Positions 17,610 through 36,838 of a DNA stretch of 64,000 nt are shown piece by piece. The DNA comes from Rhodovarius crocodyli (lineage in GTDB: Bacteria > Pseudomonadota > Alphaproteobacteria > Acetobacterales > Acetobacteraceae), in the NCBI RefSeq assembly GCF_004005855.1, contig NZ_SACL01000004.1:248001-312000 (forward strand), in the 5' to 3' direction. The notes beneath the pieces were generated by a model. The model did not search any database. It was not told the origin of the DNA and saw only the letters and a list, made by a program, of their open reading frames with translations. The translations under genes and the position numbers were made by a program. The stretch's first letter is position 1, and every line of letters begins with the position of its first letter.

Positions 17610-17935
17610 TGCCCGAAGCCACCCTGGTGATCCGCCGCGGCAGCCCCGGCGAGACCCCGCGCGACGAGGCCTTCACGGTCGAGTTCCAGCCCGGCGCCTC
17701 GGTGCTGGATGTGCTGCGCATGCTGCGCGTCGAGCGCGACCCGACGCTGACCTTCCGCTACGCCTGCCTCAACGCCAATGCCTGCAAGGAATGCATGATG
17801 GTGGTGAACGGCAAGGTAACCTACGCCTGCACGGCGCGGGTGATGGAAGGCACCACCACGCTGGAACCGCTGCCGAACAAGGAGCTGGTGCGCGATCTGG
17901 TGACGCAGATCGCCCCGCCCGACGAACGGTTCTAG
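17609..17935 (+). CDS. Small [2Fe-2S] protein resembling the N-terminal domain of SdhB/FrdB
   Basis: A 108-residue protein with a plant-ferredoxin-like cluster site: C53, C59, C62 and C74 (CLNANACKEC, then NGKVTYAC). The spacing C-x5-C-x2-C-x11-C has one residue more in the first gap than usual SdhB (C-x4-C). The context (FRYACL, VVNGKVTYAC, TTLEPL) is that of the SdhB N-terminal domain. The C-terminal domain with [4Fe-4S] and [3Fe-4S] clusters is missing; the stop is natural, not a visible frameshift. It starts in the stop of the flavoprotein gene (TGATG), so the two form a two-protein module. The stop overlaps the convergent LysE gene by 3 bases. Confidence 0.8.
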   Translation: MPEATLVIRRGSPGETPRDEAFTVEFQPGASVLDVLRMLRVERDPTLTFRYACLNANACKECMMVVNGKVTYACTARVMEGTTTLEPLPNKELVRDLVTQIAPPDERF

Positions 17936-19218: not shown

Positions 19219-19992
19219 TCAGCCCTCCTCCACCAGGTCTCGATAGGCATGCCAGCTGGCATGCCCGATCAGCGGCATCGCCACCACCAGGCCCAGGAAG
19301 AACGGCACCAGCCCCAGCCCGGTGAACACCACGATCAGCCCCGCCCACAGGATCATGGGGCGGGGATGCGCCATGACGGTGCGCGCGCTGAGGGAGATCG
19401 CCTCGCCCACCGAGATGTCCCGCGCCACCAGCGCCGGAATGCCCACCGCGCAGGCCGCGAAGGTGGAGGCCGCGAAGATGAAGCCGAGCCCCGTGCCCAC
19501 GATCAGGAAGGGCAGGAACTGCGGGGACTGCAGCATGGCGAAGGGCAGTTGCTCCATCGGCACCGCGAATCCGCCATTGAAGAACAGCGCGAACAGCAGC
19601 CCCGCCACCCGCACCCAGGCCAGGTGCACGATCAGCAGCAGCGCGCCCATGAAGGCCAGCTGCCCGCCCTGGCGGCGGAACGGCGCCAGCACCGCATCGA
19701 AGCCCACGGGCTGGCCCAGCTCTCGCCGGCGGCTGACCTCATACAGGCCCGCGGCCAGCAGGGGCGCCATGATGAAGAAGCCCGCGGTGGCCGGCAGCAC
19801 CGCCCATGCCGCGCCCGCCTTCAGCATCACGGCGCTCAGGATCCAGCCGAACAGCGTGAGTGCGGCCCCATAGCCCAGCGCGATTCGCTTATGCGCCAGC
19901 AGGTCCTGCCAGCCGCGCGCCAGCCACAGCCAGGGCCTGTCCGTGCGGATGATCCGCGCCGGCGGCGCGCCCCCCAGAACCTGCGTCGTCAT
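19219..19992 (-). CDS. DUF2189 family membrane protein
   Basis: A 257-residue polytopic membrane protein. The opening RPWLWLARGWQDLLAHKRIALGYG and the segment SVGEAISLSARTVMAHPRPM are typical of DUF2189 proteins, which occur next to cytochrome oxidase genes in many alphaproteobacteria but have no assigned role. About six hydrophobic segments are visible. It is divergent from ccoN with the FNR box at 20054-20067 lying between them, so it may respond to the same oxygen signal. Confidence 0.85.
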   Translation of the reverse strand: MTTQVLGGAPPARIIRTDRPWLWLARGWQDLLAHKRIALGYGAALTLFGWILSAVMLKAGAAWAVLPATAGFFIMAPLLAAGLYEVSRRRELGQPVGFDAVLAPFRRQGGQLAFMGALLLIVHLAWVRVAGLLFALFFNGGFAVPMEQLPFAMLQSPQFLPFLIVGTGLGFIFAASTFAACAVGIPALVARDISVGEAISLSARTVMAHPRPMILWAGLIVVFTGLGLVPFFLGLVVAMPLIGHASWHAYRDLVEEG

Positions 19993-34364: not shown

Positions 34365-35498
34365 TCAGTCCCGGCCCAGGATCTCGCGGTTGTGCTGGCC
34401 GATGCGCGGGCTCGGCCGGCTGGGCTTCGGGCGGCGCCGGTTGAAGTGGATGGGCAGGCCCAGCACCTTCGGCCCGCCTTCGGGCAACTCGCAGATCATG
34501 TCGACGGCCGCCATCTGCTCGGAGTTCGTGACCTCGGCGATGTCGTTCACCGGGGAGCACGGCACGCCCGCCGCACCCAGCGCGTCCAGCCAGTGCTGGC
34601 GCGTGTTGGTCGAGAACGCGGCCTGGATCAGCGGGATCAGCTCCGCCTTGTTGCGCACGCGGTCGCGGCCCTTCAGGAAGCGCGGATCCTCGGACCATTC
34701 GGGGTGGCCCAGCACCTTGCAGGTGCGCGCGAAGAAGCGGTCGTTGGCGGCGGCCAGCAGCAGCGGCAGGTCAGAGGTCTGGAAGGCCTGATACGGCACG
34801 ATCACCGCGGCGCCCGTGCCATGGCGGCGCGTCACGTGGCCGTCATACAGGTACTGGTTGATCTGCCCCTCGACCCAGAAGGCCGCGGTGTCGAACAGGG
34901 AGGTGTCGACGATGCCGCCCTTGCCGGTCTTGTCGCGCTGACGCAGCGCGGCCAGGGCGCCGATCACGGTGAACATGCCCGTCGCCTTGTCGTTGATCGA
35001 GGCGCCCGCCAGGCTCGGCGGCCCGTCCGGATAACCCGTCACGCTCATCATGCCGCCATAGGCCTGCAGGATGGGGTCGAAGGCCGGCTTCATCTTCATG
35101 GGGCCGGTGAAGCCGAAGCCCGAGATGGTGCAGTAGACGAGCTGCGGGTGGCGCTTCACCGTTTCCTCGGCGCCGAGCCCCATCTCCTCCATCACGCCGG
35201 GGCGCAGGTTGTGGATCATGATGTCGGCGGTGGCCAGCAGCGCGTGCAGCGCCTCGATGCCTTCCGGGGACTTCAGATCGAGGGAGACGGAACGCTTGGA
35301 ACGGTTCTGCCCGTAGAAATAGAGGGAGGTCTCGCCATCCGGTCCGAAGGGGGGGCCCCAGCCGCGGGCATCGTCGCCCTCGGGCTTCTCCACCTTGATC
35401 ACGTCCGCGCCCATGTCGGCCATCATGACACCGGCCAAGGGCCCGGCCAGCGCCTGGCCTACCTCGACAACGCGGACACCTGTGAGCGGCAGCTCCAT
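34365..35498 (-). CDS. CaiB/BaiF family (type III) CoA transferase
   Basis: A 377-residue CoA transferase. The N-terminus MELPLTGVRVVEVGQALAGP, KVEKPEGDDARGWGP and the segment HNLRPGVMEEMGLG (which normally carries the catalytic Asp in VENFRPG-type motifs) match the family. GMMSVTGYPDGPP and the C-terminal SPVNDIAEV are also typical. Such enzymes move CoA between carboxylic acids. The start is the ATG at 35498; the frame is open upstream but has no homology. It stands alone, convergent with RidA and divergent from the SOS-boxed radical SAM gene. The substrate is unknown. Confidence 0.92.
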   Translation of the reverse strand: MELPLTGVRVVEVGQALAGPLAGVMMADMGADVIKVEKPEGDDARGWGPPFGPDGETSLYFYGQNRSKRSVSLDLKSPEGIEALHALLATADIMIHNLRPGVMEEMGLGAEETVKRHPQLVYCTISGFGFTGPMKMKPAFDPILQAYGGMMSVTGYPDGPPSLAGASINDKATGMFTVIGALAALRQRDKTGKGGIVDTSLFDTAAFWVEGQINQYLYDGHVTRRHGTGAAVIVPYQAFQTSDLPLLLAAANDRFFARTCKVLGHPEWSEDPRFLKGRDRVRNKAELIPLIQAAFSTNTRQHWLDALGAAGVPCSPVNDIAEVTNSEQMAAVDMICELPEGGPKVLGLPIHFNRRRPKPSRPSPRIGQHNREILGRD

Positions 35499-35582
35499 CC
35501 CGATACTCCTCTCTTGGACTGGAAGGGAGCTTAAGGGAGTTGTGGCGTTTGCGCGAGGCCGGCCGCCGGGTTTTGCGCGCGT

Positions 35583-35597
35583 GTTCATTTTTCGTTC
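35583..35597. promoter_or_regulatory. LexA (SOS) box 1, alphaproteobacterial type
   Basis: GTTCATTTTTCGTTC is an exact GTTC-N7-GTTC, the LexA operator of alphaproteobacteria. It directly abuts a -35-like TTGACT (35598-35603) upstream of the radical SAM gene. A second box lies 36 bases downstream. Two exact boxes in a 167-base gap are unlikely by chance. Confidence 0.8.
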
Positions 35598-35633
35598 TTG
35601 ACTGGCTCATGCATGTGCGCGCATGGTGCTTGC

Positions 35634-35648
35634 GAACGGAACATGAAC
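35634..35648. promoter_or_regulatory. LexA (SOS) box 2, reverse orientation
   Basis: GAACGGAACATGAAC is GAAC-N7-GAAC, the same operator on the other strand. It lies 17 bases before the radical SAM start at 35666, near the expected transcript start, where bound LexA would block initiation. Confidence 0.8.
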
Positions 35649-35665
35649 AGCCTTGGAGCTCCTCC

Positions 35666-36838
35666 ATGCCCGACGGTCTTCTCTGGGGTCAGCCCTCGCC
35701 GCGCCGCATCCCGCAGCCGCATATGGACGGCGCGCAGTCCCGCACCGGCGCGATCGTGCCCGGCGCCTTCCAGAAAGGCCGTGCGGCGCTGAGCAACCCG
35801 GCCAACCGCTTCGAGAGCGCGATCGCCGAACCCTTCGACGACGGCTGGGACACGCTGAGCGAGGATCTGGTGGATATGCCGCCGATCCGCACCCAGCTGA
35901 TCCGCGAGGCGTCGCGTTCCGCGCTGACCTACAATGACAGCCCGGATATCGGCTTCGACCGGTCGCTGAACCCGTATCGCGGCTGCGAGCACGGCTGCAT
36001 CTACTGCTATGCCCGGCCCAGCCACGCCTATCTGGGTTTCTCGCCCGGCCTCGATTTCGAGACCAAGCTGATGTTCAAGCCGGATATGGCGGCGCTGCTG
36101 GAAAAGGAGCTGTCCAAGCCCGGCTATGTGCCGCGCCCGGTGGCGCTCGGCGCCAACACCGACCCCTATCAGCCTGTCGAGCGGCGCCTGCGCCTGACGC
36201 GGGAGGTTCTGGAAGTGCTGGAGCGCTTCAACCACCCCGTCACGGTCGTGACCAAATCGGCGGGCGTGCTGCGCGACATCGACATCCTGGCCCGCATGGC
36301 GGAGCGCAACCTGGCCCAGGTGGCCATCAGCGTGACCACGCTGGACAGCAACCTGGCCCGCCGGATGGAACCCCGGGCCGCGACGCCCATGCGCCGCATC
36401 GGCGCCATTGCCGAACTGTCGCGCGCCGGCATTCCCACCGCCGTGCTGGCCGCGCCCATGATCCCGGCGATCAACGACATGGAGCTGGAGCGCATCCTCT
36501 CGGCCGGCGCCAATGCGGGTGCGAAGCGCGCGGGCTATGTGCTGCTGCGCCTGCCGCTGGAACTGCGCCAGATCTTCGAGGAATGGGTGCAGAAGCATTT
36601 CCCCGACCGCGCCCGCAAGGTGCTCTCGCTGATCCGGGACACGCGCGGCGGCGCCACCTATCAGTCCGATTTCCACACCCGCCAGACCGGCACCGGCGTC
36701 TATGCCGGGCTGTTGGCCCAGCGTTTCGCCCGGTCGGTGGAATCGCTCGGCCTGGTCCGTCGCGGCGGCGGCACCCAGGGGCTGGACTGCAGCCATTTCC
36801 AGGTTCCCGGCACGGCAGTGCAACCCGCGCTGCTGTAA
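35666..36838 (+). CDS. PA0069 family radical SAM protein (spore photoproduct lyase-like)
   Basis: A 390-residue radical SAM protein. The cluster motif is C107-x3-C111-x2-C114 (GCEHGCIYCYARPSH) after NPYRGCEHG, typical of the PA0069/SplB-like family. The N-terminal HMDGAQSRTGAIVPGAFQKG and the C-terminal IRDTRGGATYQSDF are also family marks. The biochemical role of PA0069 proteins is not established; they are related to spore photoproduct lyase, a DNA repair enzyme. Two LexA boxes upstream suggest it is induced by DNA damage, which fits a repair role. The start at 35666 is preceded by TTGGAG. Confidence 0.9.
   Translation: MPDGLLWGQPSPRRIPQPHMDGAQSRTGAIVPGAFQKGRAALSNPANRFESAIAEPFDDGWDTLSEDLVDMPPIRTQLIREASRSALTYNDSPDIGFDRSLNPYRGCEHGCIYCYARPSHAYLGFSPGLDFETKLMFKPDMAALLEKELSKPGYVPRPVALGANTDPYQPVERRLRLTREVLEVLERFNHPVTVVTKSAGVLRDIDILARMAERNLAQVAISVTTLDSNLARRMEPRAATPMRRIGAIAELSRAGIPTAVLAAPMIPAINDMELERILSAGANAGAKRAGYVLLRLPLELRQIFEEWVQKHFPDRARKVLSLIRDTRGGATYQSDFHTRQTGTGVYAGLLAQRFARSVESLGLVRRGGGTQGLDCSHFQVPGTAVQPALL

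Follow-up and report, generated by a model that had tools for sequence, protein, structure and literature searches.

The Radical SAM Gene and Its Promoter

In the window, meaning the whole stretch of 64,000 nucleotides that was analyzed, a gene encoding a radical SAM protein is separated from a divergently transcribed gene for a family III CoA-transferase by 167 bases, the gap originally predicted, as the two ATG codons (positions 35498 and 35666) confirm. The features of the gap and of the genes on either side of it are as follows:

34365-35498, minus strand: family III CoA-transferase, the divergent neighbor (ATG at 35498), identified by matches to family libraries
35583..35597, plus strand: predicted LexA operator O1, GTTCATTTTTCGTTC, abutting the -35 hexamer; an exact match, as it is in 41 of the 46 loci of the family (the window among them)
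35598..35603, plus strand: -35 hexamer TTGACT, read from the sequence, with no spacer after O1; TTGAC lies in the same place in 40/40 loci with a pair at 49-51 bp
35622..35627, plus strand: putative -10 element CATGGT, weak, with an 18-nt spacer; inferred from the paired promoters of relatives and absent from the generic scan
35634..35648, minus strand: predicted LexA operator O2, GTTCATGTTCCGTTC on the minus strand, at the inferred transcription start; an exact match, as it is in 34 of the same 46 loci
35655..35658, plus strand: putative Shine-Dalgarno sequence GGAG, located 7 nt 5' of the start codon and separate from O2, inferred from the sequence
35666..36838, plus strand: PA0069-family radical SAM protein of 390 amino acids (ATG at 35666, stop at 36838); NF033668 at 488 bits (cut-off 360) and PF04055
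35984..36007, plus strand: CX3CX2C motif for the 4Fe-4S cluster, codons 107-114 (C107, C111, C114), present in 215/215 loci examined, none dropped

The PA0069-type identity that had been proposed was borne out by an NCBIfam profile search, in which the protein scored 488.2 bits with NF033668 (rSAM_PA0069) against the curated cut-off of 360. Four families were hit in this search, TIGR00620 not being among them; the second match, to the Rv2578c family (NF038135), reached 202 bits and lies under the 430-bit cut-off of that family. A PA0069-type gene over the cut-off was found in 150 of 200 genomes of the window's family, which is probably the Acetobacteraceae, judging from the named relatives and from L021, identical to the Rhodovarius record L086, and the 50 genomes with no such match imply that the function of the gene is dispensable. 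Relatives of the protein were also found in 73 plasmid records, 27 of which with a coverage of at least 80%, the replicons being 0.88-4.6 Mb among the 20 matches listed. Partial relatives, with a coverage of at most 57%, occur in 10 phage and archaeal virus records (PP511521.1 and nine others), one of which is annotated as a PA0069 family radical SAM protein.

The divergent neighbor varies between genomes. In 37/61 loci the upstream stretch encodes a family 2 glycosyltransferase on the opposite strand, and in one of these relatives (L021) its start codon overlaps O1. No glycosyltransferase was found next to the radical SAM gene in the window or in its nearest relative, L035, where the CoA-transferase is adjacent; both boxes and their spacing are unchanged in these two loci. 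In two same-genus relatives (L023 and L034) the CoA-transferase lies beyond the glycosyltransferase, and in the window (34365-35588) it seems to have become the divergent neighbor through loss of the latter.

Both of the boxes that had been claimed, GTTC-N7-GTTC and GAAC-N7-GAAC, are exact, and O2 is inverted with respect to O1, thereby forming a convergent pair 51 bp apart, start to start. The original description of the boxes as flanking the -35 element holds in part: TTGACT does directly follow O1, but the two boxes enclose the whole core promoter and not the -35 hexamer alone. No sigma-70 consensus was detected in this promoter by a generic promoter scan, and its -10 element is poor. In the paired promoters of relatives, a weak -10 element is located approximately 17-18 nt after the -35, with box 2 about six nt further on, where transcription would be expected to start.

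The pattern GTTC-N7-GTTC occurs at three sites in the window compared to 0.54 expected, a number that was reached in 1 of 100 shuffles; the third site lies at 17864-17878. The genome of 5.27 Mb holds 81 matches, which is approximately one in every 65 kb, compared to 28 when the pattern is reversed; it has a single convergent pair of boxes separated by 20-50 bp, whereas a control pattern gave none. A cluster of three matches 11 bp apart (G000:C46:121043-121079) is perhaps a short repeat rather than a set of operators.

The Same Box at Other Genes of the Genome

The attribution of this operator form to alphaproteobacterial LexA is upheld by the genes that carry the same box elsewhere in the genome. 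Twenty stretches were sampled at sites chosen by eye because their cores looked promising, a sample that consequently leans to repair genes, and a selection of 15 proteins from the neighboring longest reading frames (one of them the glycosyltransferase of a relative) was scanned against family libraries. An exact single box was located beside genes scoring over curated family cut-offs, viz. lexA (two Pfam domains), recA, uvrB, the divergent uvrA and ssb, and a ligase-associated helicase and exonuclease pair, and also beside ImuA-, dnaE2- (error-prone polymerase) and tag-like genes, the matches of which lie under the family cut-offs. With lexA, the LexA_DNA_bind domain was recognized from G000:C1:19440 and the box is found at 19383-19397. 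A second radical SAM protein, matching TIGR03916 (rSAM_link_UDG, putative DNA modification/repair) at 542.8 bits, a score over the curated cut-off, is directly preceded by an exact single LexA-type box (L039, G000:C2:122486-126486; box at locus positions 2001-2015). Counter-examples among the sampled boxes are a site at a muramidase and two scanned proteins that match no family. Both lexA and recA of this genome thus carry one exact box each, compared to two at the radical SAM gene.

Conservation of the Boxes Before Orthologues

The original prediction had staked itself beforehand on the presence of boxes upstream of orthologues, and they are present. With a scan range of 600 to 150 nt 5' of the CX3CX2C codons, the exact alphaproteobacterial box was found in 29/29 other loci (from the best 30 of 41 matches over the cut-off, the window's own included), in 23/26 new loci of the window's family, in 71/80 named loci and in 30/30 same-class loci of a fourth set. 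The named set comprises the best 80 of 594 relatives and hence leans to near kin; it also overlaps the other genome sets, L086 (Rhodovarius) and L021 being the same organism, for example. Five control patterns gave exact matches in 0-4 of the 80 named loci and in 0-7 of the 30 loci of the fourth set. Allowing one mismatch, the controls reached 3-16 of 30 in one set, and because this renders mismatch-tolerant counts uninformative, the exact matches were relied on.

Nine of the named loci lack an exact alphaproteobacterial box: two from Pseudomonas carry CTGT-N8-ACAG exactly, six match the alphaproteobacterial box but for one base, and L137, from a gammaproteobacterial MAG, has neither. CTGT-N8-ACAG is presumably the LexA motif of the gammaproteobacteria, and PA0069 is said to appear on a published list of the LexA regulon of Pseudomonas aeruginosa. 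Upstream of orthologues outside the alphaproteobacteria, exact CTGT-N8-ACAG was present in 33/49 and missing from 16/49, and the exact alphaproteobacterial box in 0/49; this set consists of the 49 listed orthologues with positions and does not contain G336, G401 and G499, which are likewise strong matches. A slightly narrower scan range with three named loci added gave 34/52, compared to 0/52 for a control palindrome. A record titled Mycobacterium sp. KBS0706 (L134) contains a PA0069 gene of alphaproteobacterial type together with the alphaproteobacterial LexA box, and is possibly a mislabeled or mixed genome.

Paired Predicted Operators as a Signature of the Gene in the Family

A convergent box pair was detected in 99/200 genomes of the family, compared to 3/200 for the reversed control, so that at most 99 of the 150 genomes in which the gene scores over the cut-off could have an exact pair. 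Comparison by hand of the 75 pairs listed with gene positions assigned 69 to the PA0069-type gene, all with a spacing of 48-52 bp start to start, and six to places elsewhere, with spacings of 36-61 bp. In three of these 69 pairs, all from one genus (G122, G166 and G202), TGGAC replaces TTGAC. Among the fetched loci with a pair at 49-51 bp, TTGAC directly follows box 1 in 40/40, the spacing being 51 in 27, 50 in 12 and 49 in one. Of the 46 family loci, counting the window, 41 have an exact box 1 and 34 an exact box 2, the latter number rising to 36 if one mismatch is allowed; at random positions, box 2 would be matched exactly in 0.3% and with at most one mismatch in 0.7%. The phased operator pair is therefore a signature of the PA0069-type gene in the window's family.

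Departures from this arrangement follow several courses. Seven of the 46 family loci have O1 only, and four members of the family on one branch of the protein tree have one box. On this tree (56 rows, midpoint root), the two-box state requires five changes, three of which are forced by well-supported branches. Ten loci of other alphaproteobacterial families have one box each, eight of which begin with GTTCTTG, indicating that the -35 element of those promoters may lie inside the operator. Three loci from one genus of the family (L069, L072 and L079) retain the gene and a TTGACC -35 element with no exact LexA box, and these are a natural deregulated case in which the exact boxes have been lost. 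The O1 cores of one-box promoters are more T-rich than those of paired promoters (p 0.0003 for T at the last four core positions and p 0.03 for A+T; seven versus 32 loci, kinship not corrected), which fits with two weaker operators working as one strong one.

These data bear on three other explanations for the boxes. Were they chance occurrences of an eight-base motif, as many of the single genome matches must be (the reversed pattern still gives 28, compared to 81), they would not be conserved before orthologues far above all five control patterns; a chance origin is rejected on the genome counts, the family pair counts, and the random-position and orthologue controls, and its probability is considered negligible. 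It is very improbable, too, that the divergent gene, in the window the CoA-transferase, is the one under the control of the boxes. The intergenic gap is indeed divergent and the overlap of O1 with the glycosyltransferase start in L021 would agree with such a role, but the boxes and their spacing stay constant while the neighbor changes from glycosyltransferase to CoA-transferase, which argues that they go with the radical SAM gene, and the TTGAC following O1 is oriented toward the latter; the divergent gene is rejected as their target. Somewhat greater, but still small, is the probability that O1 alone is a real operator and O2 is accidental or a feature of the ribosome-binding site. In many relatives O2 ends approximately 7 nt before the ATG, such that its right half (often GGGAAC) could act as a Shine-Dalgarno sequence, and the loci with O1 only lend this some weight. 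Against it, the conservation of both GAAC halves of O2 far exceeds that at random positions, the window has its separate GGAG, and the T-richer cores of O1 in one-box promoters look as if O2 offsets a weaker O1. With both its conservation and the layout of the paired promoters speaking against it, a mere Shine-Dalgarno function for O2 is unlikely.

The Enzyme and Spore Photoproduct Lyase

The kinship to spore photoproduct lyase that had been assumed for the protein family survives as a loose structural tie. The AlphaFold model of the radical SAM protein has a mean pLDDT of 74, with residues 1-64 at low confidence, and its best match in the PDB by Foldseek is spore photoproduct lyase (E 1e-7, TM about 0.5, rmsd about 5 A), a partial match; many of the other hits are enzymes that modify peptides, cofactors or metabolites. 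Searched as a single sequence, the protein gave no match to a PDB chain with an E value of 1 or lower, and a profile search of the PDB returned seven hits that did not include spore photoproduct lyase. A profile comparison with a fragment of the lyase gave a weak probability of 8%, and the profile of the lyase family, TIGR03886, has no match in the genome.

With the lyase, C141 has been proposed to serve as the H-donor (PMC9850924). Across the 215 proteins from every locus fetched (the window's own included, none dropped and near-copies kept), the three cluster cysteines are the only ones conserved. Two MAFFT placements put the H-donor of the lyase (C140/C141) at positions 158-166, where cysteine is present in 0/215, at a very low similarity that leaves the register uncertain. 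Cysteines nearby are not conserved (position 156 in 38/215 and 167 in 8/215), the next commonest being at 375 (78/215). The position at which the donor was placed is occupied instead by an NTDxYQP motif, of which T, D, Q and P are present in 215/215. The missing H-donor cysteine suggests that these proteins are probably not canonical spore photoproduct lyases; given the weak profile comparison, this argument rests on the MAFFT placements and on the lack of any conserved cysteine beyond the cluster. PA0069-type proteins may quench the radical without a cysteine or catalyze another reaction.

Two further views of the enzyme were weighed. The first, a canonical spore photoproduct lyase that uses a cysteine as its H-donor (the 'splB' of photoreactivation), would agree with the lyase structures (PDB 4fhc and mutants) being the top PDB matches of the model, with the CX3CX2C motif and following aromatic residue common to both, and with the name splB given to a LexA-boxed homolog in PMC3323433. 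The proposed H-donor nevertheless lacks a counterpart in the PA0069-type protein, neighboring cysteines are not conserved, and the similarity in sequence is very weak, as the searches of the PDB and with TIGR03886 attest; this identity is thus improbable. Less readily dismissed, if still on the unlikely side, is an SOS-induced radical SAM enzyme that acts on something other than DNA, such as tRNA, a protein or a metabolite. Radical SAM enzymes catalyze a broad range of reactions, their sequences do not reveal the substrate, and the match in fold is modest and accompanied by the many hits to enzymes acting on other molecules; set against this are a DNA-repair enzyme as the best structural match and the recurrence of upstream LexA-type boxes under two different motifs. 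Action on DNA or nucleotides is the reading that is favored, with a modest degree of confidence.

Proposed Regulation and Role

Considering the operators, their conservation and the company the box keeps in the genome, it is predicted with near certainty that the radical SAM gene is under LexA control, and both predicted operators are very likely functional. The SOS-type regulation points in turn to a role in DNA damage, as originally proposed, a role that would be drawn from the regulation only. With good confidence, the locus is proposed to function as an SOS-regulated unit (LexA on O1 and O2 would shut the promoter until its cleavage after damage frees it), the product of which would act on damaged DNA. 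LexA bound to O1 would block the -35 element and LexA bound to O2 would cover the inferred start site, the two bound operators together shutting the promoter. Upon DNA damage, LexA would be cleaved, both operators would clear, and the radical SAM enzyme would be made; it would then act on damaged DNA by a radical SAM chemistry other than the proposed cysteine-quenched chemistry of the lyase.

As a broader and more tentative suggestion, the PA0069 family may constitute a second class of radical SAM enzyme for DNA lesions, a vegetative one, which the SOS response would switch on by LexA motifs that differ between at least two lineages of proteobacteria and which would reverse or modify lesions without a cysteine quench; in the window's family, the clamp of two operators on its gene would be purpose-built and shared by few other genes. 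For a radical SAM family that has had no settled function, the present findings provide a candidate role in DNA damage that can be tested, with a clear signal for induction. The module of operator, promoter and operator likewise provides a natural test of why one SOS gene should be clamped twice, and lexA and recA once.

Comparison with Known Systems

Searches of the literature found none linking PA0069 or Rv2578c with LexA, none on LexA and the SOS response in Acetobacteraceae, and, in the texts that were accessible, nothing on the function of PA0069. As far as these searches tell, the operator-promoter-operator module and the absence of the H-donor cysteine are new.

LexA control of possibly related proteins has been predicted or recorded in other lineages. 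In Streptomyces venezuelae, the radical SAM protein vnz_31145 is entered in a table of the LexA regulon together with mitomycin C RNA-seq and LexA ChIP-seq data (PMC9380542); its box is actinobacterial, unlike the alphaproteobacterial box of the window, and it is likened here as a radical SAM protein only, by its table entry. For the SOS networks of Bacteroidetes, LexA control of SplB/COG1533 was predicted in 2021, with another type of LexA and another motif than at the window gene (PMC8565304).

The closest precedent is a 2012 prediction of LexA control of a spore photoproduct lyase homolog, splB, in alpha- and betaproteobacteria (PMC3323433). Like the window gene, this splB is a lyase homolog with predicted LexA control by group-specific LexA motifs, and it is likely an ortholog of PA0069 or a member of the same subfamily. 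The regulation of the window gene is thus of a known kind, LexA-regulated splB having already been predicted in print, and the case of one gene under two LexA motifs is the argument that was made there for splB. A word search of the available text returned nothing on paired operators. The trait was described there as not observed in the gammaproteobacteria, whereas the present analysis includes the two Pseudomonas loci with exact CTGT-N8-ACAG. Finally, splB was read in that study as an enzyme of photoreactivation, in contrast to the reading preferred here; with the proposed H-donor cysteine missing, the labels splB and photoreactivation may mislead, and may be wrong, for this subfamily.
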